A stretch of DNA of 20,461 nucleotides from a virus. Shown one piece after another: positions 6,597-20,461 of this stretch. The notes beneath the pieces are model-generated. The model was not told the origin of the DNA. It worked only from the letters and a program-made list of their open reading frames with translations, and did no database searches. The position numbers were made by a program, and so were the translations under genes. The stretch is from the IMG/VR virus record IMGVR_UViG_3300023174_002652, positions 1 through 20,461 of that record; one strand, given 5' to 3'. The number at the start of each line of letters is the position of its first letter. Within the stretch, counting starts at the first letter, position 1.

Positions 6597-6724
6597 TATT
6601 TCTCCTAGTGCTAACTAGACGCGCCAATCTGGCACGCCTAGAAAACACTAGGCAGATACTCACTCTTCAATTTTCAGGTAACAGTTGCGCCAAATTCAGT
6701 AGATGCAATTTGAGCAATACAAGA

Positions 6725-6753
6725 ATCATCTCGCGATTCGGTTCTATTGTCAA
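6725..6753 (-). promoter_or_regulatory. Putative leftward promoter of the helix-turn-helix gene
   Basis: On the minus strand a perfect -35 box TTGACA (6748-6753) is followed after 17 nt by GATGAT (6725-6730), 4 of 6 to the -10 consensus. The leader to the ATG would be about 120 nt. Confidence 0.45.
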
Positions 6754-6764
6754 TCCCAGACAAT
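6746..6764. promoter_or_regulatory. Inverted repeat over the -35 box (operator-like)
   Basis: ATTGTC and GACAAT, 6-bp perfect arms separated by 7 nt. One arm contains most of the putative -35 element, so a protein bound here would block the leftward promoter. Confidence 0.4.
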
Positions 6765-6786
6765 AACCCTATGAATACTAAGGATT

Positions 6787-6802
6787 CTGACAGTACTGTC
6801 AG
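6787..6802. promoter_or_regulatory. 16-bp palindrome, copy 6
   Basis: CTGACAGTACTGTCAG, a perfect palindrome in the divergent region, about 35 bp upstream of the putative -35 box of the helix-turn-helix gene. Confidence 0.6.
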
Positions 6803-6851
6803 GGTTCAAAGGTTCATGCCAACTGCCACCACTGCCACCGATTCAGGTACG

Positions 6852-6943
6852 GGCAGATAGTCACCATTAAATAAATCTGCCTTTATTTAATACCTACCTG
6901 CCCCGTCTCAACGGGGTACGGGGTACACGTTGCCAAAGGCAAC
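6852..6943. repeat. Cluster of hairpins in the divergent region
   Basis: The stretch contains ATTAAATAA/TTATTTAAT (6866-6891, 8-nt loop); GGCAGAT (6852-6858) complementary to ATCTGCC (6875-6881), which would compete with it; CCCCGT-CTCA-ACGGGG (6901-6916); a tandem GGGGTAC repeat (6913-6926); and GTTGCC-AAA-GGCAAC (6929-6943). No T-run follows any stem, so these are not standard terminators. There is no convincing gene in 6597-7271. An AT-rich stem among GC-rich hairpins would fit an origin, a packaging site or RNA regulatory structures. Confidence 0.5.
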
Positions 6944-7057
6944 CAATGGACAGGGACAGACACCAACCGACAACATGACCTAGAGTGATTAAACCGAGTC
7001 CCACACACCCACCCATGACTCACTCATATTTTTTCGTGCTGTTTTTGGTATGGGAAG

Positions 7058-7072
7058 CCTTATGTTATAAGG
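7058..7072. repeat. 15-bp inverted repeat CCTTAT-GTT-ATAAGG
   Basis: Two perfect 6-bp arms with a 3-bp centre. The right arm contains TATAAG (7066-7071), which could be a weak rightward -10 box with TTTGGT as a poor -35, so this may be an operator over a promoter. Confidence 0.35.
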
Positions 7073-7082
7073 GTTTTATTCT

Positions 7083-7098
7083 TGTGACGTAAGTCACA
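7083..7098. promoter_or_regulatory. CRP/GlxR-type binding site
   Basis: TGTGACGTAAGTCACA is a perfect match to the CRP-family pattern TGTGA-N6-TCACA and to the actinobacterial GlxR form TGTGANNTANNTCACA. Its centre is about 58 bp before a start site predicted from the -10-like CATAAT at 7136-7141, near the class I activator position. Confidence 0.6.
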
Positions 7099-7135
7099 TA
7101 AAAATAATTAGATACCTATGCGTTACGGGGTATAC

Positions 7136-7141
7136 CATAAT
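7136..7141 (+). promoter_or_regulatory. Candidate late promoter -10 box
   Basis: CATAAT matches TATAAT at five of six bases, with no good -35 box 17 bp upstream (TACCTA). That would suit an activator-dependent promoter served by the CRP/GlxR-type site. Alternative AT-rich boxes lie at 7166-7173. Confidence 0.3.
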
Positions 7142-7175
7142 GGGGTTAGTATAAGTGTATGGTTTTATATTATTA

Positions 7176-7229
7176 GTGTCCCCTGGCGGGACACAGAATG
7201 TAGTTAAAACGCATCGCCTGGCGCGATGC
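7176..7229 (+). ncRNA. Twin leader hairpins with identical CTGGC loops
   Basis: Hairpin A is GTGTCCC-CTGGC-GGGACAC (7176-7194); hairpin B is GCATCGC-CTGGC-GCGATGC (7211-7229). Both have a 7-bp stem and a 5-nt loop. The loops are identical, while base pairs 2, 3 and 6 of the stems differ with both strands changed together. They lie in the probable 5' leader of the terminase gene, ending 42 nt before its ATG. A T-rich stretch follows the second hairpin, so partial termination is possible, but the loop conservation points to recognition by a protein or RNA. Confidence 0.6.
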
Positions 7230-7271
7230 TTTATATGTGTTTTTTATTGTCTAGTTTTTACGAGGTTTATT

Positions 7272-9158
7272 ATGTCTGCCAAGAGTGGAGAGAATCATCA
7301 CTTCACAGTACGGCGCGAACAGGACCAGGCTGCGTTCCTAGCCTCTGTAGCCTCCGGTATTGATGAACATACCGCCCTAGGATTAACAGGCCGTAAACTG
7401 CCTGCGTTAAAGACATGGCTTCGAGATAATAAGTTTGCCTCGCGCCTAGAAGCCGCGCGCACCGAGTCCAATAAACTATTCGGCGAAACCCTAGCCTCTG
7501 GCAAGAATATCGACTATGCCACCTTCTCTAAAGAGTTCCTGAACTCTGAGGTATTCCCACACCATCAGTCCTGGATTGATGTTCTAGAGGGCAATGACCC
7601 ATCTTGGATTCATGAGTCTATGACCTATGAACCAGGCAACCGTCGCCGTCTTCTAATTAACGTACCACCAGAACATGCTAAGTCCACAGTTCTAACTGTA
7701 GGCTACGCGACTTACCGCATAGCCATGGACCCAAATATCCGTATTGTTGTAGTTTCCCAGACTCAGGCTCGCGCCAAAGAATTTCTCTTCTCCATTAAAC
7801 AAAGGCTTACCGAGCCAGCGTGGGCTAAGATGCAATCCGTATACGGACCTGCTGGAGGCTACCAAGCCACCGCAGACCAGTGGACTCAGGATAGAATCTA
7901 TCTAGAGCGCGACTCTGGCGAGAAAGACCCTACCGTACAGGCTATTGGTATGGGTCAACAGATTTACGGTACTCGTGCCGACCTCATCATTCTAGATGAT
8001 GTTATCACCACTACAAACGCCCATGAATGGGAAAAGCAACTTAACTGGCTACAGAAGATGGTTATCACCCGTGTTGGTGCTACCGGTACCCTAGTTATTG
8101 CTGGTACCCGTGTATCCTCTATTGACCTATACAAAGAGATACGCAACCCAGATAACTGGTCTGGCGATAAGTCCCCATTCACCTACCTGGCTATGCCAGC
8201 GGTTTTGGAGTATGCAGACAAACCCGAGAACTGGGTAACTCTCTGGCCCCACTCGGACCGTGTATGGGATGGGGCAGACCCACAATATGACGCAGAACTT
8301 TTAGTACAGGATAAAGATGGATACTACCCAAAGTGGGATGGCAAGCGACTTTTCCACCGCCGCAGTGAAGTTAACCCTTCTACTTGGGCTCTTGTATACC
8401 AGCAGCAAGATGTGGAAGAAGACGCAATCTTTCCGCTCATCTCTGTTAACGCGAGCGTCAACCGCATGCGTAAGCCTGGTACTATCAAGTTCGGTACTCC
8501 AGGACATCCACGAGATGGACAATGGGTAACCATCCTAGGATTTGACCCAGCCATGGTAGGTAATTCTGCTATGGTAGCCTATGCCGTAGAACGGCAAACA
8601 GGGCAACGCATGGTTCTAGATGTGTTTAACATGACAGAACCAACCCCGTCAAAGATTCGTAACCTCATCGAAGAATGGGTTACTAAGTATAACCCGATGG
8701 AAATTCGCATTGAAATTAATGCGTTCCAAAAAGCATTCGCGCTGGATGAAGACCTCCGCATGTGGCTTGCCAATCGGGGTGTCCGATTCAGTGAGCAATT
8801 CACTGGCAAGAACAAGTGGGACACAAACTTTGGCGTTGCTGGTATGTCTGGATTGTTTGGCTCGGTGCGAGAAGGAAAGCACCAAGGCGATAATCTTATA
8901 GAACTACCAGATAATACTAACGAACACATCAAGGCTCTGGTTAACCAGTTAATTACCTGGAAGCCAGATACCAAGAATAAGACCGACTGCGTTATGGCTT
9001 TATGGTTTTGTGAATTGCGAGCAAAAGAACTTGTTCAGCAATCAGGAAGCCGAATTTACCATACCTACAACAGATACGCTACACGTCGCAACGAAGAGCA
9101 ACGCATAGTCTTTGACTTAGACGAACTTGCTGCAGAACAATCATTAATCTACATTTAG
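7272..9158 (+). CDS. terL: Large terminase subunit with N-terminal small-terminase-like domain
   Basis: This ATP-driven motor and nuclease packages phage DNA into the prohead. The ATPase shows NVPPEHAKST (130-139, Walker A type) and ADLIILDD (236-243, Walker B); the RNase H-like nuclease shows GFDPA (D425), IRIEI (E481) and KTDCVMAL (D572). I start at 7272 (628 aa): GAGG lies 6 nt upstream, and a longer reading from 7155 would pass through the twin hairpins. Residues 10-65 contain a helical repeat-like segment (FLASVASGIDEHTALGLTGR, then LPALKTWLRDNKFASRLEAAR) that resembles the DNA-binding helix-turn-helix of small terminase subunits. No separate small terminase gene is visible nearby, so the functions may be fused. 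It is the first gene of the rightward late operon and is followed after 7 nt by the portal. Confidence 0.95.
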   Translation: MSAKSGENHHFTVRREQDQAAFLASVASGIDEHTALGLTGRKLPALKTWLRDNKFASRLEAARTESNKLFGETLASGKNIDYATFSKEFLNSEVFPHHQSWIDVLEGNDPSWIHESMTYEPGNRRRLLINVPPEHAKSTVLTVGYATYRIAMDPNIRIVVVSQTQARAKEFLFSIKQRLTEPAWAKMQSVYGPAGGYQATADQWTQDRIYLERDSGEKDPTVQAIGMGQQIYGTRADLIILDDVITTTNAHEWEKQLNWLQKMVITRVGATGTLVIAGTRVSSIDLYKEIRNPDNWSGDKSPFTYLAMPAVLEYADKPENWVTLWPHSDRVWDGADPQYDAELLVQDKDGYYPKWDGKRLFHRRSEVNPSTWALVYQQQDVEEDAIFPLISVNASVNRMRKPGTIKFGTPGHPRDGQWVTILGFDPAMVGNSAMVAYAVERQTGQRMVLDVFNMTEPTPSKIRNLIEEWVTKYNPMEIRIEINAFQKAFALDEDLRMWLANRGVRFSEQFTGKNKWDTNFGVAGMSGLFGSVREGKHQGDNLIELPDNTNEHIKALVNQLITWKPDTKNKTDCVMALWFCELRAKELVQQSGSRIYHTYNRYATRRNEEQRIVFDLDELAAEQSLIYI

Positions 9159-9165
9159 GGTTACA

Positions 9166-10953
9166 ATGCTAACTATCGAACAAATCACTAACAAGGTAAC
9201 GTCTTTACAAGACCGTTACTCTGCACGTGACCAGCGCATGCGCGATATCACAATGGTTCGTCGTGGCAATATGGAAGCAGTCTACCCAGACATGTTCCCT
9301 GAGGGTATCTCTAAGCCAATGATTGCAAACTTCTGTGACGTAGTAGCACGTGACTTGGCAGAAGTATTAGCACCACTACCATCAGTAAACTGTTCAACAG
9401 TTAACAGCACAAGCGATTCATCTCGCAAGGCTTCTGAAAGACGAAGCATGATTGCTAATAACTACGTTCAATCTTCTGGGTTACAAACTCAGATGTACAC
9501 TGGTGCAGACTGGGCGTTCACATACGCCTACATGCCCATTGTTGTAGAGCCTGACTTTGAGGCTCGTATGCCACGCATCCGTATAGAAAACCCTATGGGT
9601 GCTTACCCAGAGTATAATCGCTATGGAAAGTGCGTATCATACACAAAGCGTTACTTGAAAACTATTCGGGAACTAATCGTAGATTTTCCTGAGTACGAAT
9701 CACTTATCGTAGGTAAACTTGGTCACCAAAACCAAGACCTAAACACCGAACTAGATGTCATGCACTATCAGGATAAAGACCAAATCGTCATGTTCCTGCC
9801 ACAGCGTGACTCGTTGGTGCTGCGTAAAGCAAAGAATCCTTTAGGCAAACTAGCAGTTGTCGTACCTCGTAGACCAGGTATTGACATTGATGACCCACGT
9901 GGTCAATTTGATGACGTGCTATGGGTGCAAATTGCACGAGCACGCTTTTCCCTTCTGGCAATGGAAGCAGCAGAAAAATCTGTACAGGCTCCACTTGTCG
10001 TTCCCCAAGATTTGCAAGAATTTGCATTTGGTCCAGATGCTATTCTTCGCACCAATAATCCTGCAGGTGTACGCCGTGTAGGTCTAGAACTACCTACCGG
10101 TGCATTCACCGAACAGCAGATTCTAGAAACAGAAATGCGTATGGGTTCACGTTACCCTGAAGGTCGCTCAGGAAATATTGATGCAAGCATCGTAACAGGT
10201 TCTGGTGTTCAGGCTTTGATGGGTGGCTTTGATTCACAAATCAAGGCTATGCAGACAATCCTTGGAGATGCACTAGAAGAAGTTATTGCTCTTTGCTTTG
10301 AGATGGATGAAAAACTATTTCCTGGCAAGAAGAAGCAACGTGGTACATTCAATGGTGCTCCATATGAATTTGAATATGATTCAGAAAAAGACATCAATGG
10401 CGACTACACCGTTCAGGTTCGCTATGGTCTTATGGCTGGACTTGACCCATCACGTGCATTAATCTTCTCACTACAGGCTTTACAAGCCAACCTAGTATCC
10501 CGTGATTTTATCATGCGAGAGTTACCATGGAGCATGAATGTTTCAGGTGAACAAGAACGCATTGATATAGAGCGCATGCGTGATTCACTATCAGCATCGC
10601 TAGCGTCTTTGTCTGATGCCATCCCACAGATGGCTATGCAAGGACAAGACCCATCTGAGATTGTTGGACAGATTGCTAAAGTAATTGAACTACGCAAAAA
10701 AGGTGTAGTAATTGAAGAGGCTGTAACTAAGGTATTTGAAAAACCAAAACCAGAAGTTCCAGCACCACCAGCAACTCCAGAACCACAGCAACAGTCAGTT
10801 GACCAAATGGTTGCTCAGTCTATGGGTCAGGCTGCTCCCCCAGCAGAACAACCAACAGGACCAACCGAACCTACTCAGGCTCCACCTGCTGCGCCTGCTG
10901 GGGGACAACCACCAGTTGACTTAGCAGGAATTCTGTCTCAACTTGGCGGATAG
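9166..10953 (+). CDS. Portal protein
   Basis: The portal is the dodecameric ring at one head vertex through which DNA enters and leaves and on which the terminase docks. The call rests on position directly after the terminase, length (595 aa) and a portal-like plan: an N-terminal helical segment, an alpha/beta wing (TGADWAFTYAYMPIVVEPD and ENPMGAYPEYN around 110-150), then a long helical stem region. The last 60 residues are low-complexity Pro/Gln/Ala (PAPPATPEPQQQ and similar), probably a disordered tail inside or outside the head. It starts 7 nt after the terminase stop with a weak GGG before the ATG. Confidence is high from context, moderate from sequence alone. Confidence 0.85.
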   Translation: MLTIEQITNKVTSLQDRYSARDQRMRDITMVRRGNMEAVYPDMFPEGISKPMIANFCDVVARDLAEVLAPLPSVNCSTVNSTSDSSRKASERRSMIANNYVQSSGLQTQMYTGADWAFTYAYMPIVVEPDFEARMPRIRIENPMGAYPEYNRYGKCVSYTKRYLKTIRELIVDFPEYESLIVGKLGHQNQDLNTELDVMHYQDKDQIVMFLPQRDSLVLRKAKNPLGKLAVVVPRRPGIDIDDPRGQFDDVLWVQIARARFSLLAMEAAEKSVQAPLVVPQDLQEFAFGPDAILRTNNPAGVRRVGLELPTGAFTEQQILETEMRMGSRYPEGRSGNIDASIVTGSGVQALMGGFDSQIKAMQTILGDALEEVIALCFEMDEKLFPGKKKQRGTFNGAPYEFEYDSEKDINGDYTVQVRYGLMAGLDPSRALIFSLQALQANLVSRDFIMRELPWSMNVSGEQERIDIERMRDSLSASLASLSDAIPQMAMQGQDPSEIVGQIAKVIELRKKGVVIEEAVTKVFEKPKPEVPAPPATPEPQQQSVDQMVAQSMGQAAPPAEQPTGPTEPTQAPPAAPAGGQPPVDLAGILSQLGG

Positions 10954-10955
10954 CC

Positions 10956-11477
10956 ATGACAACAATTTTAGCAGTGCAATACCAAAATGGTTTTGTATTT
11001 GCAGCAGATAGTCAAATCACTGAAAACGAACGCCCCTACATGCACAGTGATGTTAGAAAAATCACCGAAGATGGTGACTATGTAATTGCTGGGGCAGGAA
11101 ATGCAAGGTTCTGTGATGTTGTCCAGTATGGATGGAAGTTACCTAGATACGATGGAACTGACGGATACCGCTTTATGGTTAGCAAGGTTATCCCGGAGTT
11201 AAAGAAAGCACATGACTCTACTGGAACAACTTTAGAAAAAGATGACGGATTTTCATTCCTAATTGGTTTAGATAATAAGATTTACTATGTTGCTGAAGAT
11301 TACTCGGTACTACGTACCGATACAGGAATCTATGCAATGGGTACTGGTGGAGAACTTGCATTAGGTGCATACTACTCTGGTGCTACAATAAGACAGGCGA
11401 TGCGCACTGCTATTAAGTTTGATGTTAATAGTGGTGGCAAAATACAGATTGTGAAACGAGGAAAGCAAAATGGCTAA
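10956..11477 (+). CDS. Proteasome/HslV-like Ntn hydrolase (N-terminal threonine)
   Basis: The 173 residues read like a proteasome beta/HslV subunit without propeptide. Met1 is followed by TTILAVQ, so T2 would be exposed as the catalytic Thr1 after Met removal. FAADSQIT puts an aspartate (D18) at the position of Asp17, RKI (K35) matches the Lys33 region with one extra residue, and MGTGGELALGA (131-141) corresponds to the GSGG loop with the Ser129 region of the family. The C-terminus (VNSGGKIQIVKRG) is the usual last strand. The gene follows the portal by 2 nt and overlaps the next gene, so it is part of the virion module. A head-maturation protease is the natural guess from position, but known phage maturation proteases are HK97/assemblin-type or ClpP-like. 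Alternatively it may target host proteins. Confidence 0.85.
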   Translation: MTTILAVQYQNGFVFAADSQITENERPYMHSDVRKITEDGDYVIAGAGNARFCDVVQYGWKLPRYDGTDGYRFMVSKVIPELKKAHDSTGTTLEKDDGFSFLIGLDNKIYYVAEDYSVLRTDTGIYAMGTGGELALGAYYSGATIRQAMRTAIKFDVNSGGKIQIVKRGKQNG

Positions 11478-11913
11478 ACAAGGTGGATACCGTAGACCAG
11501 CCAACCCAGCACCAGTTTCAGGACCTGGAAAGTTATCACGTCGTACGGATGGTGGACCAACACAGGGCGCAAAGTACATGGCTGGAAGCGGCAAGTACGG
11601 TGAAGGTAAGGCACTAATGGAAGCACAGCAGAGTGCTCCAATGTCTGGTGGTACACCAGCACCTGCACCAATATCTATACCTAAACCACAATCTCCACTA
11701 GAAAGTTTATTTGCTCCAACACAACGACCAGATGAACCAGTTACTGCTGGAGTTCCAATTGGTCCTGGCGAAAGTCCTATACCAACTCCTGCTGGTAACT
11801 ATGACATGATTAACAAGTATATGCCAGCACTTGAAACAATGGCAGCCCAGCCAGATGCACCAGAAACATTTAAAGCATTTGTCAACTACGTAAAGGTAGA
11901 GTCACAAAAATAA
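11470..11913 (+). CDS. Hypothetical Pro/Gly-rich virion-module protein, 147 aa
   Basis: The protein is of low complexity: a basic, Gly/Pro-rich N-terminus (MAKQGGYRRPANPAPVSGPG), a motif GPTQGAKYMAGSGKYGEGKA at about 33-52, a Pro-rich centre, and a helical C-terminal 35 residues (NYDMINKYMPALETM onwards). Most of it is probably disordered. AGGAAAG before the ATG and an 8-nt overlap with the hydrolase gene support the start. Such proteins beside portal genes can be head-tail or decoration accessories or protease substrates, but I do not recognise a family. Co-translation with the Ntn hydrolase suggests a functional tie. Confidence 0.7.
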   Translation: MAKQGGYRRPANPAPVSGPGKLSRRTDGGPTQGAKYMAGSGKYGEGKALMEAQQSAPMSGGTPAPAPISIPKPQSPLESLFAPTQRPDEPVTAGVPIGPGESPIPTPAGNYDMINKYMPALETMAAQPDAPETFKAFVNYVKVESQK

Positions 11914-12086
11914 TGAGTTTCCAAGAAGATGTTACAGCGTTTGTAAATATCTTTGGTGTGGAAAACTCTGACATAGCATTCCCTTTTGCAATTACTCAGT
12001 GGGAGTCGTCAGATGACCGCAACAAGTTTATTGCACAACTAATACAAATTAACAATGGTCAAAAGATTGGTACCGACAATGGCTAA
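11913..12086 (+). CDS. Hypothetical small protein, 57 aa
   Basis: The ATG overlaps the preceding stop by one base (TAATG), indicating coupled translation. The product (MSFQEDVTAFVNIFGVENSD at the start, AITQWESSDDRNKFIAQLIQ later) is a small, acidic, helical protein with no membrane segment. It fills the only gap between the Pro/Gly-rich gene and the giant gene and overlaps the latter's start. Its size and position resemble small head or tail accessory proteins, but the function is unknown. Confidence 0.6.
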   Translation: MSFQEDVTAFVNIFGVENSDIAFPFAITQWESSDDRNKFIAQLIQINNGQKIGTDNG

Positions 12087-15000
12087 CATTATGAGTGGTG
12101 TTGGTGATTGGTTGGAAAAAACTGCAGATACAACTATTGAAAACGTTAAAGAAGTTCCTGGTGTATTCCAGGAGTATGGTGTTGTTGGTGGAGTCAAGCG
12201 CGGTGCAACTAACGCTTTAGTAAATGACTTTGTTGCTGGTCCTGCCGAAAAACTTGCAATGCCTTACAGCAAACTTGTTTCGCGCCCGTTATCTGCTGGC
12301 TTACAAGCCATCAAAGATGCAAAGAATCCCGCTGACCTTCGCAATGCATGGAACAAAGGTTGGGAACGTTCTTCATACATCTCTCCTGGTCAAGCACTTG
12401 TAGGTGCTATTACTCGTGTAAAGCCAGGACAGCAAGAAGCAGACAAGATTAACTGGGCAGATTCAATGCAGGTTAATGGATACTTCTCTAAAGAGGGAAG
12501 CCTTCAGAAGAAAATTTCTGGTGGTTCTGACTTCTTGTTTAACGTATTCCTTGACCCATTAATGTTTGCTGGTAAGACACTTAAGGTAGCAAAACTTGCC
12601 GCTACTGGAACTCGTCGTACTGTAATCAATCTTCCATTTGGTGCTAAGATAAATCAAATTGGTAAACTTTCAAATGAACTTGAATTGGCAAGAGATGCAA
12701 ATGTAAAAAGTGGTGCATCTGTAACTGTTGACTCAATCTTAAAATTTGCGAATGACCCAGCAACAATGCAGTTGCTTCCAATTGTTGCTCGTTCACAAGA
12801 TTCTTTAACGCTTTCTCGTGTACTTTCCAATGCCGCTAAGTTTGGTGGTCGTAACTCAGTTATTGACGTGTTACAGGTTGGTATTGGTGATATCAATAAA
12901 TATGATGAGATTGCTGCAAAAGTTCCAGAACTTGCTAATCAAATTGATTTACTTCGTGCAAGTAAGCAATCAATCAAAGAAGATATTGCTAAAGTTAATA
13001 AAAAACTTGAGCGTTATGATACTCCTAAATTAACTCCTGCACAAATTCGTGCAAAGGAAAAAGCAAATGCCGACCTTTTAAAAAGTCAAGAAGAATTAAA
13101 AGCGGTAAGAAAAGAACTTAAAACAACACGTTCTGAATTATCTGTAATTCAAGATGTTGCTGGAGAATCAATTGTTCCACAAATACAGGAACAAGCATTT
13201 AGTCGTTTTGCTTTTTATGAACATCTACGTCGTGTTGGTGCTGAAGTTAGTGCACGAGGCATGTACGTTGACATCAATCCAATTGATGATGCTCTAGAAG
13301 CAAAAGCACTATCAAAACTTTATGGTTATGGTTCTCGTGCAATACGTACTGTTGGATATTTAACTCCGACTTTCAAGCCACGTGAAATTCCTGCTGGTTC
13401 CGTTACTATTGCTGGTAAGTCAGTTCGTGAATCTGGTGATGAATTCAGAGCACGCCTACTACAGGCAGCACCTGCTGCTAGACTCACTGTTCAAGAACAA
13501 AAGAATTACTACAATGACTACATTAAACTATCAACTGACTCTCAAAGATTTCAATTTTTAGATAACTTTGAATCAGAAATACTTCAAAGAATGATTCTTA
13601 AGAAGTTTGTTCGTGACCCAGGTGACAAAAAAGTTATTGCAGAAGTGCAAAAGATGCGCGATGCCGGAAAAAAAGAAGATGAAATTCAGCGTTATCTAAA
13701 TGGCAACATGAATGCTGAACAGTTTAAGACAATATCTGCAGCAATTCAAAAAATGGCTGATGATATGCGTGTTAACAAAATAAATCATCTTAAGAGAATT
13801 ATCAATGAACAAAACTATGTTCATGTTGATGATGCAACTGGCGATACAATAATCCTAAAAGAACTTCAAGATAAAGTTGAAGATTTAGCAAAGAAGATTG
13901 CTGCCGATAACAAGTCTGATTACACAAGTAATCCAGATAAATTTAAAAAACAAGCAATTGACTTGTTAACTAATACACCATTGTACCGTACTCAAGTTCC
14001 TAACGTACACTTTGGTGTAGATTTTTCACTTCTTGACAAGATTATGACAGATGACAAAACTCTTGTTAGTTCTCTTGTATCCCATGTTAGAAATAATCCT
14101 AACGCAACATCTACAAGTGTAGTTAAACTACTTGATGATGCTAAAAAAATTGCTCCTGGCTTTGCACAAGGCATTAAAGAAGCAGGAAGAAAGTCTTGGG
14201 ATTACCAAATAACCCAGATGTACAATGATTTCCAGAATTATGTATGGAAACCATCTGTTCTTCTATCTTTACGCTACTCAAGTCGTAACGTATTTGAAGG
14301 ATGGGGTCGAGTTCTTTCTAGCATCTCAGATATGACTTCACATTATGGTTATAGTGCAACTGCTCTTGCGAAAGGTTTCTTTAGTCCATCTGCAATAACG
14401 GAACCAATCCGTAGTGCTACAAATCGCATCACTTCACGCATAGAACGTGAGGGTCTTATTGGTACTGGTGGAACAAAGAGCAAGTTTGATGCAGTAAAAG
14501 CAAGCAAGTTTGAAAATGAACTTGAAATCGGCAGAACATTTGGTATAACAAATGATGACGGTTTAATGATTGTAGAAAAAATTGCTCAGCGTTACCGCGA
14601 AGAGGGAGATTATTTCCTTGAGCAGGCAAAAGATGTCCTTGCTGCATCATTTGAAGCAACGATGCGTACTACTGGATTCTTTAAGACTTACCGTGGATAT
14701 GGTCAAAACAAAGTAATTGCAGATAAAATATCAAAACTGTCTGATGGTATATTTAATGTAACTAAAAAAGGTGAACTATCTGAACCATTGCTTAATGCAT
14801 TGCGTTCTGGAGATTACCAGTTAGCATACAATATTTCAATTCAATCTGACCCACAATTAGTTTACAAAACACTTAGCATGATTTCAACACGTGCCAAAAG
14901 TGCTCGTAAGCAAATTGCTAAGATGTCTTCTGGAATTAATGCAAAGAAAACTCCAATCTTTGCAGATAACTTAAGAAAAGCAGACGAAATGTTTGAACTG

Positions 15001-17763
15001 CTTTCTGACAATGCACAGGCAACACTTGGTGCATTTGATACTCGTGTAAAAATTATGGGTGACTGGAAGAATGCACTAAGCAAAACAACAGTTGCTCCAC
15101 AGAAGTCATTTGCTTACTCACGTAAACCAATTAAAATTGCACGTGGTGTTACAATAGATGCTCCATATTTAAACAATGTTGAACGCTCTAGTGTAAGTTC
15201 TGCTAATAGTACAAGCCGAGCAGTACTTGGTTCACGTCGCAGTACGTTTGGTAACTTCTTTAATACTGGAAATAGGCAGTCACTTATTACTACTTCTGAT
15301 GCTGCAGAGTGGACTGGTGCGCATGCAGAGTATGTTAATAACATAATCTATGGTGATGATGCTGCTAAGATTGTAGTAGATTTATCAATAAGTCCTCGCA
15401 ATAAGTCAGATAAAGTTATTGCTAAAGTTGTTGAAGATATGAAGAAGGCTGGAAAGAGCCAAAAGGAAATCAAAGATTACCTTAATGGAAACTATAGCAA
15501 TCAGGAAATAAAGCAACATCTACTTAACTGGATTAATAGTCCAGCATCTGATGCATGGCGAGCAGAAAAGCGTATTGATTTAAACGACTACCGTGAGACA
15601 TTTAAGAGTGCTCAGTGGAATGACATAACTGAAACTATCTTTGCTGACGTAGAAAAGTACCTTCCAATGAAGGGACCAAACAATGAGGACCTTTCGTTTC
15701 TACGAACAGCACTAAATGAAGGTAAGTTTACAGAAATTCAATCAGGTTTGATACCTAATGAATTCCGTTCTTCTGTATATGGAAACGTACAACAAACTGG
15801 AACCGGTATTGGAATTTTCTACAGAAATCTTATTGGTAATCTATTCCATGCTCTTGCTACAATGCCAGAAGACACTCTAGTTCGTCATCCATTCTATAAT
15901 GCTGTATATCGTGCTGAAGGCAATCGCATGGCTAATAGTATTGCTAAACAGGGTAAAAAGCCTGGAGACTACACTAAACAAATTCAAGAGTCTGCTGCTC
16001 GTGCAGCACATAAGGCTGTAATTGACCGTTTGTACACAGTAGAACGTCATACTAATATTGGTGGTATTCTTAAGTTTATGTCGCCATTCTACATGGCTCA
16101 ACAGAACTCAGCAAAGTACTGGTTAAATACTGCTATACGCAATCCTGATGTTGCAGTCAGAATCGTTGAGGCATATACCACACCGTATCGTATCGGAACT
16201 GTGAAGAACCGTGACGAGTACTATGCAAACACGAACCAGATTGCTACTCCTTGGAATATCAAGGGACATGTAATGCTTATGGATTATCCTCAGTGGATGA
16301 CAGATAAGTTCTTTGCTGGTGACTCTAGCATGAAGGCTGAAATTCCACTTAGTGGATTTGATGTAATGTTCCAGGGACAACCTATTGGTGTTCCACAACT
16401 TGGTAGTCCAATTGCTTCACTTGCATTAGGTACAGTATCTCGTTTTATTGCTGGCAAAGAATATGGCACAACTAAGTTCATGGATGCATTTGGTATCAAA
16501 CTTGAAGATGCTATTGGTTATGTGCAACCATTCTATGATGCTACAAAAGGTGAAGGTGTAACTGGAAGTGTAACATCTGCCTTTGGTGGTGGCTCTGTTG
16601 CACTTCAAGCAGCGATGACCGCAATTGGTGGTATGGCTGGTTCGTTTGATAGTACATCAACTGGAACAAAGTTCGCTAACCGTGTCAATGCTATTCAGAC
16701 TGATAAGTTAACTAAACTTGCAGAATCTAATACACCAATCACTGGTGCAGTAATTGAAGATGTTCGCAATAAGTCTATTGCTTTGGCGATTAACTCATTC
16801 TGGCTTGAGGCTATTGCCAATGGTATGCCTACTATTGCATCCTCACGTTTCCGTACATCAACTGACTTGACACTAAAGCCAGAGTTACAACGTAGTATTC
16901 AACAATATGATTATGACCTTGGTACTGCAATGTTTACTGAAAAGTTAAACATTACTCAGGGTGAATATGTTGTTAAGTTATTAACTGACAGCCAAACAGA
17001 TAATCGCTTTGCCTTTAATTCAACAGATAAGACTCTTGCTGGAATCTATCCAAATCAGAATCTAATTGAACAAGCAGATAAGATGACTTCAGATAAGTCC
17101 CTTATTGGTGTGTTCTTTAATCAGGGTGACTGGAATGCTGACTACTCACCTGTTGTAGCAGACACTATGTACAACATTACAATCAATGGTAAGCCAATCA
17201 AGTACAGCGCACAGGATAGAATGACTGCTGCTGAAGACTTGCAGGTTCGTTCCGGTAATCGTGAATACTATGCTGGTGTTGAGAAGATTGAAAATGCTGC
17301 TCGTGCTGCTGGTATTCAAAAGGGAACTGCTGAGTACGATAAAACATATGGTGAAGTTAAGAAGCAACTAGAGTTTAAGGTTGCACAAACATACCCACTA
17401 TGGGGTGCTCGTGATATTACTTCACGTCAGAATCGTGTAGACAAAAACGTAGCACTAGTTCAGATGATGTTAAGTGATAGCAAGTATATGAACACCGTTG
17501 GAAAGAATATTCCTACTGTTACTGCTATGAAAGAATACATCAGGGCTCGTGGCAAGTTAATGGCTGAACTAGAATCTGCTAGAGAAGCCAGTGGAAAGAA
17601 AACTATTGATGCACGTGCCAATGCCTATGTTGGTGAAGTTCTTGACTTAGTAGTTTCAGAATTAGATAGAATGTACCCTGGATTCAGGCGCGTTCATGAC
17701 ATTTACTTTAATGGAGATAAACTTGGTGACGTATCAGTTTACACTTCAGGATATGGATACTAG
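12055..17763 (+). CDS. Giant virion-module protein, 1,902 aa, LPD38-like region
   Basis: This is the largest gene of the window. Only scattered features are recognisable: an amphipathic N-terminus (about 1-110), a coiled coil at about 298-366 rich in Lys/Glu, and a region near residues 1260-1380 (HALATMPEDTLVRHPFYN, then GGILKFMSPFYMAQQNSAKY) that resembles the LPD38 domain of phage polyvalent proteins, a tentative call. Two copies of a 29-residue helical motif, each ending in YLNGN, occur at 523-551 and 1118-1146. There is no signal peptide or long hydrophobic helix. Between portal and scaffold it probably acts as an internal or ejected virion protein, comparable in size to podovirus gp16-type ejection proteins. 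No tape-measure features are clear. The start is uncertain: ATG codons at 12055, 12079 and 12091 all lack a clear ribosome binding site; 12079 gives the shorter overlap with the previous gene. Confidence 0.75.
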   Translation: MVKRLVPTMANIMSGVGDWLEKTADTTIENVKEVPGVFQEYGVVGGVKRGATNALVNDFVAGPAEKLAMPYSKLVSRPLSAGLQAIKDAKNPADLRNAWNKGWERSSYISPGQALVGAITRVKPGQQEADKINWADSMQVNGYFSKEGSLQKKISGGSDFLFNVFLDPLMFAGKTLKVAKLAATGTRRTVINLPFGAKINQIGKLSNELELARDANVKSGASVTVDSILKFANDPATMQLLPIVARSQDSLTLSRVLSNAAKFGGRNSVIDVLQVGIGDINKYDEIAAKVPELANQIDLLRASKQSIKEDIAKVNKKLERYDTPKLTPAQIRAKEKANADLLKSQEELKAVRKELKTTRSELSVIQDVAGESIVPQIQEQAFSRFAFYEHLRRVGAEVSARGMYVDINPIDDALEAKALSKLYGYGSRAIRTVGYLTPTFKPREIPAGSVTIAGKSVRESGDEFRARLLQAAPAARLTVQEQKNYYNDYIKLSTDSQRFQFLDNFESEILQRMILKKFVRDPGDKKVIAEVQKMRDAGKKEDEIQRYLNGNMNAEQFKTISAAIQKMADDMRVNKINHLKRIINEQNYVHVDDATGDTIILKELQDKVEDLAKKIAADNKSDYTSNPDKFKKQAIDLLTNTPLYRTQVPNVHFGVDFSLLDKIMTDDKTLVSSLVSHVRNNPNATSTSVVKLLDDAKKIAPGFAQGIKEAGRKSWDYQITQMYNDFQNYVWKPSVLLSLRYSSRNVFEGWGRVLSSISDMTSHYGYSATALAKGFFSPSAITEPIRSATNRITSRIEREGLIGTGGTKSKFDAVKASKFENELEIGRTFGITNDDGLMIVEKIAQRYREEGDYFLEQAKDVLAASFEATMRTTGFFKTYRGYGQNKVIADKISKLSDGIFNVTKKGELSEPLLNALRSGDYQLAYNISIQSDPQLVYKTLSMISTRAKSARKQIAKMSSGINAKKTPIFADNLRKADEMFELLSDNAQATLGAFDTRVKIMGDWKNALSKTTVAPQKSFAYSRKPIKIARGVTIDAPYLNNVERSSVSSANSTSRAVLGSRRSTFGNFFNTGNRQSLITTSDAAEWTGAHAEYVNNIIYGDDAAKIVVDLSISPRNKSDKVIAKVVEDMKKAGKSQKEIKDYLNGNYSNQEIKQHLLNWINSPASDAWRAEKRIDLNDYRETFKSAQWNDITETIFADVEKYLPMKGPNNEDLSFLRTALNEGKFTEIQSGLIPNEFRSSVYGNVQQTGTGIGIFYRNLIGNLFHALATMPEDTLVRHPFYNAVYRAEGNRMANSIAKQGKKPGDYTKQIQESAARAAHKAVIDRLYTVERHTNIGGILKFMSPFYMAQQNSAKYWLNTAIRNPDVAVRIVEAYTTPYRIGTVKNRDEYYANTNQIATPWNIKGHVMLMDYPQWMTDKFFAGDSSMKAEIPLSGFDVMFQGQPIGVPQLGSPIASLALGTVSRFIAGKEYGTTKFMDAFGIKLEDAIGYVQPFYDATKGEGVTGSVTSAFGGGSVALQAAMTAIGGMAGSFDSTSTGTKFANRVNAIQTDKLTKLAESNTPITGAVIEDVRNKSIALAINSFWLEAIANGMPTIASSRFRTSTDLTLKPELQRSIQQYDYDLGTAMFTEKLNITQGEYVVKLLTDSQTDNRFAFNSTDKTLAGIYPNQNLIEQADKMTSDKSLIGVFFNQGDWNADYSPVVADTMYNITINGKPIKYSAQDRMTAAEDLQVRSGNREYYAGVEKIENAARAAGIQKGTAEYDKTYGEVKKQLEFKVAQTYPLWGARDITSRQNRVDKNVALVQMMLSDSKYMNTVGKNIPTVTAMKEYIRARGKLMAELESAREASGKKTIDARANAYVGEVLDLVVSELDRMYPGFRRVHDIYFNGDKLGDVSVYTSGYGY

Positions 17764-17771
17764 GAGTTATT

Positions 17772-18695
17772 ATGGCTGATAGCAGTAATCGTAAAGACAG
17801 AGAAAGTCCTACAAAAAATCCTTTAACTCCAGAAGAACTTGCTATTCTTAGTGCATCTATCCAGGATGCCACATCACGTGGTGAAAAGATTGATGTTGAT
17901 TCATTAATTGCTTCTATGAAAACTTCAAAAGAAGATAAGACTACTGGTGGCACATCATACACTCTTCCAAGTACTTTAAATAAAGCAGCGTCAGATGCTT
18001 TGATTAAAGAAGCAATGTTAACCACTCTTGGTATTGAGCCAGATAAAAAAATTCTTGATGATTTTTACAAACGTGCAAATGCTTTCTTAAAAAAGTATGG
18101 CAGTAGTTCGACAACTCGTTCTGCTGGCGGTACAAGTAAAAGCCAATCAATCCAAGGTGTAGATGCAAGTACATTTGTTCAAGAATATGTTGGAGCCTAT
18201 ACAGCAAAACTTGCCACAGTTAATCCTAAATTTAAATTTGGTGGAGAAGTTGGAAAAGCACAACAAACATTATCTGATTATTCAAATGAAATGGGATTGT
18301 TTAAGTCATCAAGAGAAATTGCATTAACTGCCACTAAGATTGCAAACAAAAAACTAAATGCTGATGATGTTATTGCTAGATATCGTACTGATGCTCAAGT
18401 ACTTTATAAAAACTTTGCCGATAGATTAAAGCAAGATTCTAAATTAACTGTTCGTGACCTAGTTAATCCATACATTCAAATGATGGCAGACACTTGGGAA
18501 ACAGCAGCAGATAATATTAAATTAACTGACAATACAATTCAGAAAGCGGTCAATGGTGATAATCTAATGTCATTAGGTGATTTTAGAACATTACTTCGTA
18601 AGGACCCAAAATTTGAAAATACTTACGGTGCAAAAGTTGAGGCTATACAACTTGGGGAATCAATGCTTCGTGCATTTTCAGGTAGAGGTGCATAA
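17772..18695 (+). CDS. Probable virion protein, 307 aa
   Basis: I do not recognise the family. AGGAG 5 nt before the ATG gives a secure start. The first 110 residues are polar and Ser/Thr-rich with low-complexity spots (SSSTTRSAGGTSKSQS around 113-128), followed by a helical C-terminal domain (LTVRDLVNPYIQMMADTW at about 225-242, MSLGDFRTLLRKDPKF at about 265-280). No cysteines or membrane segments are visible. It lies 8 nt after the giant gene and overlaps the next start by one base, so the three are one translational unit. A structural or internal head protein is the likely role, by context only. Confidence 0.7.
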   Translation: MADSSNRKDRESPTKNPLTPEELAILSASIQDATSRGEKIDVDSLIASMKTSKEDKTTGGTSYTLPSTLNKAASDALIKEAMLTTLGIEPDKKILDDFYKRANAFLKKYGSSSTTRSAGGTSKSQSIQGVDASTFVQEYVGAYTAKLATVNPKFKFGGEVGKAQQTLSDYSNEMGLFKSSREIALTATKIANKKLNADDVIARYRTDAQVLYKNFADRLKQDSKLTVRDLVNPYIQMMADTWETAADNIKLTDNTIQKAVNGDNLMSLGDFRTLLRKDPKFENTYGAKVEAIQLGESMLRAFSGRGA

Positions 18696-19762
18696 TGACT
18701 GAGGCCGAAAAGAGAGCAAAGGCTGCAAAAGCCAAGGCGGCTGCTGCCGCTAAGGCTAAAGCGGCTGCTGCCGCTAAGGCAAAGGCTGCTGCTGCAAAAA
18801 AATTAGCAGATGAAAAAAGTGCTGAGCAAGCAGCAATTACTGCTGCTGAAAAAGCAGCGGAAACAGTTCGCGCTCAAGATAGGGCTGACCGTTGGAATAC
18901 CTCTCGTGAAGCACTGCAAGGTGTTCTAGGTACAATGTTTAACATTAATGACCCAGAAGAAAAAGCATGGATTAATGAGTTTTATGATTTAGCAAAACCT
19001 TTATCTGATGTTGGTTTATCACCAGACTCAATTCCTGAACAGATTCTTTACTCAGGTAAAGCACCTAAAAAGTTTGCTGAAAGATTTTCTGGAGCACTTG
19101 AATTGCAAAGAAAAAAACTTGCTGGTGAGAATGTTTATGTTCCAAGTATTGCAGAGTATGTTGCTGGAGAAGAAGAATACATGGGTCTTGTTAAATCATT
19201 TGGTATGAATGATTTAGCCAGTAAGCAAACATATGGAAAAATTACTGGAAATGCTGTATCTGTAAATGAAACTCGTAAAAGAATTCAAGATGCAGTTTCT
19301 CGAGTAGACTCTCTTGACCAAAATGTTAAAGACCAATTGAAGAGTGAATTTCCAACTCTAAAAGAATCAGATATGGCTCAAGCCATACTTACTGGTCCCG
19401 ATGGTATTCAGAATCTTAAGACTAAGATTCAACGTGCTGGTGTTAAGGCTGGTGCCGCTGCAGCAGGACTAACTATGCAAACAAGTCTTGACCAATTAGG
19501 TAACCTCAGTTACGAACAGGCTACTGCTGGATTTCAACAAGTTGCCAATACACTTAAGACATCAACTGCTGGTATTCAACAAGCAGGTAGGATGTTCGGA
19601 GACGAAATTAGTGCCACTGATTATCAAACTGAACTTGAAAAAGAAACACTACTTGGTCAGACTTCACAACGTACTAAGCGTCTACAGTCTCAGGCTCGTT
19701 CGCAATTTGCTGGACAGTCCGGAATTGTAACTGGTTCATTAAGTCGCAAGAAACAAATATAA
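18695..19762 (+). CDS. Probable virion protein with Ala/Lys-repeat N-terminus, 355 aa
   Basis: The N-terminus (residues about 3-40) is an alternating Lys/Ala helix (KAKAAAAAKAKA and repeats) encoded by 24-bp tandem repeats, like the DNA-compacting tails of histone-H1-like and TolA-like proteins. The remainder is helical and polar (NINDPEEKAWINEFYDLAKP near 88-107; coiled segments to the end) with a basic C-terminus SLSRKKQI. The ATG overlaps the preceding TAA (TAATG). It lies just before a structured intergenic region and the scaffold gene. A basic Ala/Lys tail would suit a protein contacting packaged DNA, perhaps ejected with it; that role is inferred. Confidence 0.7.
   Translation: MTEAEKRAKAAKAKAAAAAKAKAAAAAKAKAAAAKKLADEKSAEQAAITAAEKAAETVRAQDRADRWNTSREALQGVLGTMFNINDPEEKAWINEFYDLAKPLSDVGLSPDSIPEQILYSGKAPKKFAERFSGALELQRKKLAGENVYVPSIAEYVAGEEEYMGLVKSFGMNDLASKQTYGKITGNAVSVNETRKRIQDAVSRVDSLDQNVKDQLKSEFPTLKESDMAQAILTGPDGIQNLKTKIQRAGVKAGAAAAGLTMQTSLDQLGNLSYEQATAGFQQVANTLKTSTAGIQQAGRMFGDEISATDYQTELEKETLLGQTSQRTKRLQSQARSQFAGQSGIVTGSLSRKKQI
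18734..18781 (+). repeat. 24-bp tandem repeat within the Ala/Lys tail
   Basis: Two near-identical 24-bp units (18734-18757 and 18758-18781), differing at two bases, encode K-A-A-A-A-A-K-A; a degenerate third begins at 18782. Copy number is likely to vary between relatives by slippage. Confidence 0.75.
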
Positions 19763-19768
19763 AAAACT

Positions 19769-19839
19769 CTCGTTGGATTGACCGCCCCCAACGAGTATTA
19801 GAGCGGTAGTATGCACCAACCCATATACCCCTGTATGGG
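19769..19839 (+). ncRNA. Pseudoknot plus hairpin before the scaffold gene
   Basis: CTCGTTGG (19769-19776) pairs with CCAACGAG (19788-19795), 8 bp. The 11-nt loop contains ACCGC (19781-19785), complementary to GCGGT (19803-19807), so an H-type pseudoknot is possible. A second hairpin CCCATATA-CCCC-TGTATGGG (19820-19839) has 8 bp including one G-U. Neither is followed by a T-run. The 122-nt gap (19763-19884) between tightly packed late genes therefore looks like a leader RNA, perhaps controlling scaffold and capsid expression or marking RNA processing. Confidence 0.5.
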
Positions 19840-19884
19840 AGTGAGAGTATACGTTCCACAACAATGTAAGGGAGAATGGTTGCG

Positions 19885-20379
19885 ATGAGCAACAATAATC
19901 AAGACTGGTATGAAGATGATGAGTTTGATTTTGACATCGAAGAGGAAACTACTTCACGTGGTTCCGATGATGTTCTTAAAAAAGTCCGTCGTGCAGAACG
20001 CGCTAAGGATAAGCAACTCAAAGAAGCACTCGCTGAATTGGAAAGTTTGCGCAAGTTCCAACGTGAGTCTACTATCAGCCAAGTCTTAAATGAGAAAGGT
20101 GTCAACCCTAAGGTTGCCAAATTCATTCCGTCAGATATTGAATTATCTGCTGATTCCATCAATGCATGGTTAAATGACAATGGAGACCTATTTGGTTTTG
20201 CGACACCAGCCAAAGAAAGTCCTGTGTCTTCTGAAGACCTAGGTGCTCTTCGACAAATGGATATGGTCGCATCAGGCGCACTAACTCCAGACGATGTGAA
20301 CGACGCGTTCAGCATGGTCAACAACGCACAGAGTGCAGAGGAATTGTTAAATTACCTCTACTCTCAAGGTGCGGAATAA
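19885..20379 (+). CDS. Capsid scaffold-like protein, 164 aa
   Basis: The profile fits phage scaffolding proteins: a very acidic N-terminus (WYEDDEFDFDIEEE), a charged helical coiled coil with VLKKVRRAERAKDKQLKEAL and ESLRKFQRE (about 28-65), then STISQVLNEKGVNPKVAKFI (about 66-85), a segment typical of scaffolds next to capsid genes. Scaffolds guide capsid assembly and leave or are degraded. I choose the ATG at 19885 because AAGGGAG lies 10 nt upstream; the ATG at 19876 directly abuts that site. The gene precedes the probable capsid gene by 32 nt, the usual order. No protease domain is fused, so removal might depend on a separate protease, for which the Ntn hydrolase is a candidate. Confidence 0.8.
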   Translation: MSNNNQDWYEDDEFDFDIEEETTSRGSDDVLKKVRRAERAKDKQLKEALAELESLRKFQRESTISQVLNEKGVNPKVAKFIPSDIELSADSINAWLNDNGDLFGFATPAKESPVSSEDLGALRQMDMVASGALTPDDVNDAFSMVNNAQSAEELLNYLYSQGAE

Positions 20380-20411
20380 TCGCAAATCAAACTAACCCCT
20401 AAGGAATAATC

Positions 20412-20461
20412 ATGGCTGTAACAGGCTTATCCGGTGGTAGTGCAGCAACTAACGGTGGTCT
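20412..20461 (+). CDS. Probable major capsid protein, N-terminus only (partial)
   Basis: Only 16 codons are inside the window (MAVTGLSGGSAATNGG). AAGGA lies 6 nt before the ATG. The call rests on position directly after the scaffold-like gene, where the major capsid gene is usually found; the visible residues alone do not identify it. Confidence 0.5.
   Translation, partial: MAVTGLSGGSAATNGG

Follow-up and report, generated by a model that had tools for sequence, protein, structure and literature searches.

Structured RNAs near the 5' end of a transcript are described from both bacterial messages and phage operons. Stem-loops that stabilize a message from its 5' end have precedents in ompA, papA, and aprE, together with a polypurine stabilizer (PMC3997798). 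In phage HK022, putL is an RNA of about 70 nt that contains two stem-loops and lies just downstream of its promoter (PMC9378689). We found no described leader in front of a terminase gene in the literature.

Here we analyze such a leader in an IMG/VR virus record of 20,461 bases, which was examined over its whole length and is referred to below as the window. An Rfam search, which a preliminary description of this DNA had proposed as a check, gave no match for the hairpins or for the leaders of relatives: at the gathering score, neither the window nor any of 18 related loci matched a family of Rfam 15, and a permissive search of positions 6597 to 7400 returned only eukaryotic snoRNA and sroD noise. 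We conclude that the leader is an undescribed sequence family of a known sort, a structured 5' leader, which in many freshwater and some soil actinophages probably protects or steers the long late message.

Results

The window carries two hairpins on the plus strand in front of the terminase gene. Hairpin 1 (positions 7176 to 7194; GTGTCCC-CTGGC-GGGACAC) and hairpin 2 (positions 7211 to 7229; GCATCGC-CTGGC-GCGATGC) each consist of a wobble-free 7-bp Watson-Crick stem and the loop CTGGC, which is exactly the geometry of a 7-bp stem and a 5-nt loop that had been given for them in the preliminary description. Three of the seven base pairs differ between the two hairpins, with both strands changed, as was also reported there. 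The window contains 3 perfect stems of at least 7 bp that include 5 or more G-C pairs and enclose a 5-nt loop, compared with 0.11 expected per dinucleotide-shuffled window, and in 200 shuffles two such hairpins were never found 60 nt or less apart. The folding energy of the 66-nt core is -24.0 kcal/mol, compared with a shuffle mean of -15.0 (SD, 2.7), and only 1 of 300 shuffles folds as low. Because the wider 161-nt fold is unremarkable (z, -0.10), the signal lies in the two hairpins and not in global stability. A pattern search of the window's own IMG/VR record recovered the known hairpin 1 alone. In the folds of some AT-rich relatives, a long-range helix closes around both hairpins; it is inconsistent, and we do not claim it.

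The rest of the leader (positions 7230 to 7271, plus strand) is AT-rich and contains GAGG at 7262 to 7265, the probable ribosome-binding site of terL. From the end of hairpin 2 to the terL start codon there are 42 nt, and the ribosome-binding site is not covered by the hairpins. The terL gene itself (positions 7272 to 9158, plus strand; PHROG 38 terminase large subunit, E = 8.5e-64) opens a rightward operon of packaging and structural genes and is followed by genes for the portal, an HslV-family peptidase, and a 1902-aa virion protein candidate. The peptidase (positions 10956 to 11477; Proteasome/HslV family, Pfam PF00227, PHROG 1040) adjoins the portal and is, by position, a candidate capsid maturation protease. 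The 1902-aa protein (positions 12055 to 17763) belongs to PHROG 10618, of unknown function, has no Pfam domain, and is by its size a candidate internal virion protein of podovirus-related phages. A scan of GTDB genomes with TerL found no relative and so gave no sequence-based host. In the leftward operon, on the minus strand at positions 660 to 900, we also observed a tRNA-like element with the layout GGCAGCA...CAGATGATG-AGGGGAAG-CATCATCTG...GATTG-TTCGGGTG-CAATC...TGCTGCCA, which is preceded by the hairpin AGAAACCCCTTAAGGGTTTCT (positions 842 to 862). This element has no match with ARAGORN or in Rfam; the same layout is present in a second locus (L424, positions 250 to 430), with compensatory changes in both hairpins.

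Although the differences between the two stems had been taken as internal covariation, two unlike perfect hairpins side by side are not covariation by themselves, and it is the relatives that supply it. A TerL search of IMG/VR gave 414 relatives, of which 80 were kept, and more were added by searching with divergent members. In almost every window-type leader, the two hairpins are in their usual place, with stems that differ in sequence. In an alignment of 17 window-type leaders with 14 stem pairs, both-sided changes occur at 10 of the 14 pairs and 99.6% of cells are paired, a result that was equaled in 0 of 500 shuffles and by no slid control. Hairpin 1 accounts for double changes at 6 of its 7 pairs with 100% of cells paired, and hairpin 2 for double changes at 4 of 7 pairs with 99.2% of cells paired. 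A FastTree phylogeny of terL requires no fewer than 17 stem changes, 16 of them double Watson-Crick swaps and 1 a single mismatch. Spacer lengths vary by 1 to 2 bases among phages whose TerL proteins are 96 to 99% identical, which indicates that the leader is not under coding constraint; an in-frame GTG open reading frame start at 7155 was rejected as coding on the basis of these 1- to 2-nt differences in leader length among near relatives. These comparisons show that the hairpin structure is under selection in the sequenced relatives, and a conserved structured late leader very probably exists. Selection on RNA structure had been proposed from the window alone, with an alignment of the regions upstream of terL as the suggested check, and the covariation seen here agrees with that proposal. 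A lack of hairpins or of covariation among relatives had been named as evidence to the contrary; some relatives do have a single hairpin and one locus has none (L316; see below), but covariation is present.

The hairpins also have a constant position relative to an upstream motif. Leaders with 1 to 4 hairpins lie directly downstream of the promoter-like motif GGGTTAGTATAWRTGTA, which is present once per genome. In the window, this conserved motif reads GGGTTAGTATAAGTGTA (positions 7143 to 7159, plus strand; consensus, GGGTTAGTATATATGTA), and with up to 3 mismatches allowed, 15 of the 16 records tested contain it once per genome. We infer that transcription starts near 7159, at the end of the motif. 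A scan of IMG/VR with the motif pattern alone, with no protein query, yielded 79 loci for inspection. Two of these (L355 and L359) are too short to test, and 76 of the 77 testable loci run into terL; in the locus L316, no TerL was seen and no hairpin was found. The hairpins at motif loci number one (e.g., L313 and L376), two, or four (e.g., L310 and L312) per leader. This arrangement, downstream of a conserved promoter-like motif that nearly always leads into terL, is consistent with the late-leader position first suggested for the hairpins.

The same loci speak against autoregulation of terL, which had been put forward at the same time, in that terL begins 344 to 852 nt after the motif in about a dozen relatives, mostly with small open reading frames between. 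In the loci that we inspected (L314, L323, L331, L332, L351, L357, and L317), one or more small, mostly Lys/Ala-rich open reading frames separate the leader from terL, indicating that the leader is linked to the promoter and not to terL. Small Lys/Ala-rich open reading frames that vary from locus to locus are found at this place in these loci and in L315, L320, L345, L346, and L349, which may be a hot spot of gene gain.

Two further elements lie upstream of the motif. A degenerate dyad, GTTAC-N10-ATAAT (positions 7122 to 7141), precedes it directly and has counterparts in relatives of the form CGTTAC..GTAACG or CGTTCG..TGAACG, with arms that are nearly perfect in many relatives and vary from group to group. 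The exchange of one form for the other at the same place looks as if the specificity of an activator or repressor had changed. Farther upstream of the late promoter region, at positions 7083 to 7098, is the palindrome TGTGACGTAAGTCACA, a putative CRP-type site by its consensus. Near relatives keep this palindrome with an altered center (ATGTGACACAAGTCACAT and others), and TGTGACCTCCGTCACA is at the corresponding place in Streptomyces Beephvirinae. Its retention suggests that these phages may use a Crp-like activator of the host.

We next compared the loops. Near relatives with the loop CTGGC in hairpin 2 can carry CTGAC, CTGTT, CTGCC, or CTGTC as the loop of hairpin 1, and more distant relatives have loops such as TTGTT, TTGGT, and CTTGT. 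Of 124 distinct leader hairpins, 113 are closed by a C-G pair and 4 by G-C. Of the 69 pentaloops in this set, all 69 have a pyrimidine at position 1, a rule that is in part a product of extending stems to their full length, and 65 have U at position 2. Positions 4 and 5 are free to vary between near-identical phages. The constrained features are only Y-U at positions 1 and 2 and the C-G closing pair, and what is present is a loop class, not one fixed loop. The identical loop of the first report is thus correct for the two hairpins of the window but does not extend to a general rule, since CTGGC is limited to some members, and the fixed recognized loop proposed with it shrinks to these constrained features. 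An excess of cUUCGg tetraloops was sought among the parsed 4-nt loops; none was counted, and tetraloops were not used as proof of RNA.

A strong preference for CYU on the 5' side of the loop and for the closing C-G pair could mark a site at which an RNA-binding protein of the phage regulates how terL, or the first late gene, is translated, and one to four copies of the hairpin could form an array. However, the hairpins stop 42 nt short of the start codon with the ribosome-binding site uncovered, the first gene varies among relatives while the leader is constant, and loop positions 4 and 5 are free even between near-identical phages. We consider a site of this kind unlikely.

A longer RNA follows the same promoter motif in a group of cousins that we call E-type, whose TerL proteins are about 58 to 60% identical to that of the window. 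It consists of a first stem that is interrupted by GARC/GYGA and starts at, or a few nucleotides from, the predicted transcription start, a hairpin of the window type (GGCTGGC-TTAAT-GCCAGCC, for instance), and a third stem with GYGA/GARC on its flanks; a purine-rich stretch comes before terL. Double changes occur at 14 of 20 pairs, and 98.2% of cells are paired. The R-Y pair within GARC/GYGA covaries, G-C with A-U, in both places, and the modules are otherwise nearly invariant. A covariance model of the E-type leader (R1) has exactly one match per genome, at the late leader, in 9 E-type genomes. The sequence context 5'-YGAR is associated with tandem sheared G-A pairs, and the sequence of the GARC/GYGA modules suggests that they form such pairs.

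More distant relatives include the isolated Planktophila phages E7 and F5 (PMC10202952). Their genomes (OX376640 and OX376641) encode TerL proteins that are 53% identical and contain the related block GAACGGGTTATCTTATATGTAAAG; inspection by eye suggests two stem-loops after it. In the Streptomyces Beephvirinae (Manuel, Immanuel3, FlowerPower, and Abafar), TerL is 45 to 48% identical. Like the window, these phages have a promoter-like stretch (TATATATA), CRP-type palindromes, and at least two stem-loops before terL; in contrast to the window, their leader is about 220 to 240 nt long and has CUNAA-type loops and extra conserved sequence, and homology of their hairpins to those of the window is not established. 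The terminal repeat of two Streptomyces relatives, determined as an exact match (275 nt in Immanuel3 and 254 nt in Dennebes), ends about 380 to 400 nt upstream of terL, before the hairpins. This position in the relatives argues against a packaging terminus as the packaging-related signal that was among the first suggestions for the hairpins.

RNA stems normally tolerate G-U pairs. In the leader stems of the freshwater relatives, however, G-U is no more frequent than A-C: the 854 pairs include 1 G-T and 3 A-C, and the 17-member window-type alignment has 0 G-U pairs. Near absence of G-U reflects either very strong selection on stability or maintenance of perfect palindromes at the DNA level. A single G-U in 854 pairs would fit selection or correction on both strands, as expected if the hairpins were a DNA-level element, either a cruciform or single-strand hairpin with a role in packaging, in replication, or as a hairpin promoter, or a pair of palindromes corrected by template switching that imitate covariation. 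Against this, the hairpins are always close downstream of the promoter-like motif, the loop rule is strand asymmetric (C-G closes 113 hairpins and G-C closes 4), the GARC/GYGA modules are compatible with tandem sheared G-A pairs only on the plus strand, and in the Streptomyces relatives the terminal repeat stops well short of the hairpins, on their upstream side. An N4-type hairpin promoter was rejected because a Pfam comparison of the 1902-aa protein revealed no RNA polymerase domain. The position downstream of a promoter-like motif, a loop rule that holds for one strand only, and the GA modules of the cousins together point to an RNA made from the plus strand, and we regard a DNA-level element as improbable.

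A loose terminator scan picks up hairpin 2 on both strands, as would be expected of an intrinsic terminator or an attenuator before terL. However, hairpin 1 is followed by AGAATGTA, which is not a U-tract, and in 60 leaders there are at most 5 T's in the 8 nt after any leader hairpin; 33 of the 60 have 0 or 1 T after the last hairpin. A real terminator-like hairpin elsewhere in a relative, by comparison, has a 9-bp stem and a T run. In the folds examined, there was also no alternative pairing common to hairpins 1 and 2. With no U-tract after the hairpins, the attenuation device of the first report is unlikely in its classical form, and termination or attenuation of either sort is very improbable here.

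Discussion

Based on these comparisons, we consider a protective, cis-acting 5' leader of the late transcript to be the most likely mechanism, a tentative choice. A late transcript that started near 7159, where the conserved motif ends, would form two stable stem-loops ~17 nt on, followed by an open ribosome-binding region and terL, and the leader would act in cis on the whole of this transcript. Compact 5' hairpins, one to four in number, would slow decay that depends on the 5' end of the long polycistronic late mRNA, and they would also shield the first ribosome-binding site from what lies upstream. Free stem sequence, a hairpin number of 1 to 4, nearly no wobble, and C-G closure would all follow if the leader had to provide compact, stable stems above all. 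The free stems, the variable number, the compactness, and the placement at or near the predicted 5' end thus favor a leader that protects and insulates. Three observations count against it. In the window, the ~17 nt between the predicted start and hairpin 1 are unpaired, which does not suit a strict 5'-end protector; the Y-U constraint in the loop and the near-invariant GARC/GYGA modules of E-type leaders exceed what plain stability requires; and the scarcity of G-U, which is unusual for RNA, would also fit selection at the DNA level or template-switch correction.

A constrained 5' side of the loop and conserved GA modules in cousins suggest recognition, and the leader directly follows a once-per-genome late promoter motif and is linked to the operon, not to terL. 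It is therefore possible, with a lesser degree of confidence, that the nascent hairpins bind the elongating RNA polymerase, as HK022 put does, or recruit a phage or host factor, as nut/boxB does, and thereby allow read-through of the long late operon. The layout of putL, about 70 nt with two stem-loops close after its promoter, resembles that of the leader (PMC9378689). This resemblance to known antiterminators is one of layout, and the leader is found at the late promoter only (in the 9 E-type genomes, R1 matches once per genome), with 1 to 4 hairpins and free stem sequence. Moreover, the rightward genes of the window contain no convincing terminator; from 7100 to 20461 there are 15 terminator-like sites on both strands, compared with 10.1 expected. 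In a still bolder form, which we find doubtful, the tandem hairpins and the E-type leaders would be two forms of a phage leader RNA not described so far, which would act at a single late promoter to reprogram the transcription machinery of the host. Such an RNA would be the counterpart of put for actinobacteria, carried by widespread freshwater actinophages, with a related form in cultured Planktophila phages.

The covariation is strong enough to define an RNA family, and a structured leader at a single late promoter gives a handle on late-gene control in widespread freshwater actinophages, to which the cultured Planktophila phages E7 and F5 and Streptomyces phages are related. Should its target be RNA polymerase, the leader would extend put-like RNAs beyond the phages of proteobacteria. 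If it protects mRNA, the natural series of one to four hairpins could be used to test what a 5' leader requires.

Compared by eye with lambda nut/boxB, the leader likewise places a short stem and a pentaloop in a phage leader; its loop is YUNNN closed by C-G, whereas that of boxB is a purine pentaloop, and no N-like protein was identified in this comparison. No consistent boxA-like stretch is visible by eye in the leaders; one is seen in a few relatives and is not claimed. The likeness to the put RNAs of HK022 (putL and putR) is that of a nascent RNA after a phage promoter, with two stem-loops and a position at the level of the operon (PMC9378689). Two stem-loops after a phage promoter describe the window, where the promoter is predicted, and relatives have 1 to 4. 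Put RNAs, however, serve the early operons of a proteobacterial phage, occur twice per genome, and adopt one specific fold that contacts RNA polymerase, with pausing and termination suppressed by way of its beta' zinc-binding domain, while the leader is present in one copy at a late promoter, with free stem sequence and 1 to 4 hairpins. Copies at several operons were not found, since R1 and the motif each occur once per genome, a count that a simple hairpin elsewhere could escape. Like the 5'-untranslated-region stabilizers of ompA, papA, and aprE and the polypurine stabilizer of Bacillus, the leader would place compact stem-loops at the start of an mRNA or close to it. Those stabilizers rest on half-life measurements, whereas the leader is known here from sequence and has loops and GA modules that are more conserved than stability needs. 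The E-type cousins resemble them in having a stem where the 5' terminus is predicted and a stretch rich in purines ahead of terL.
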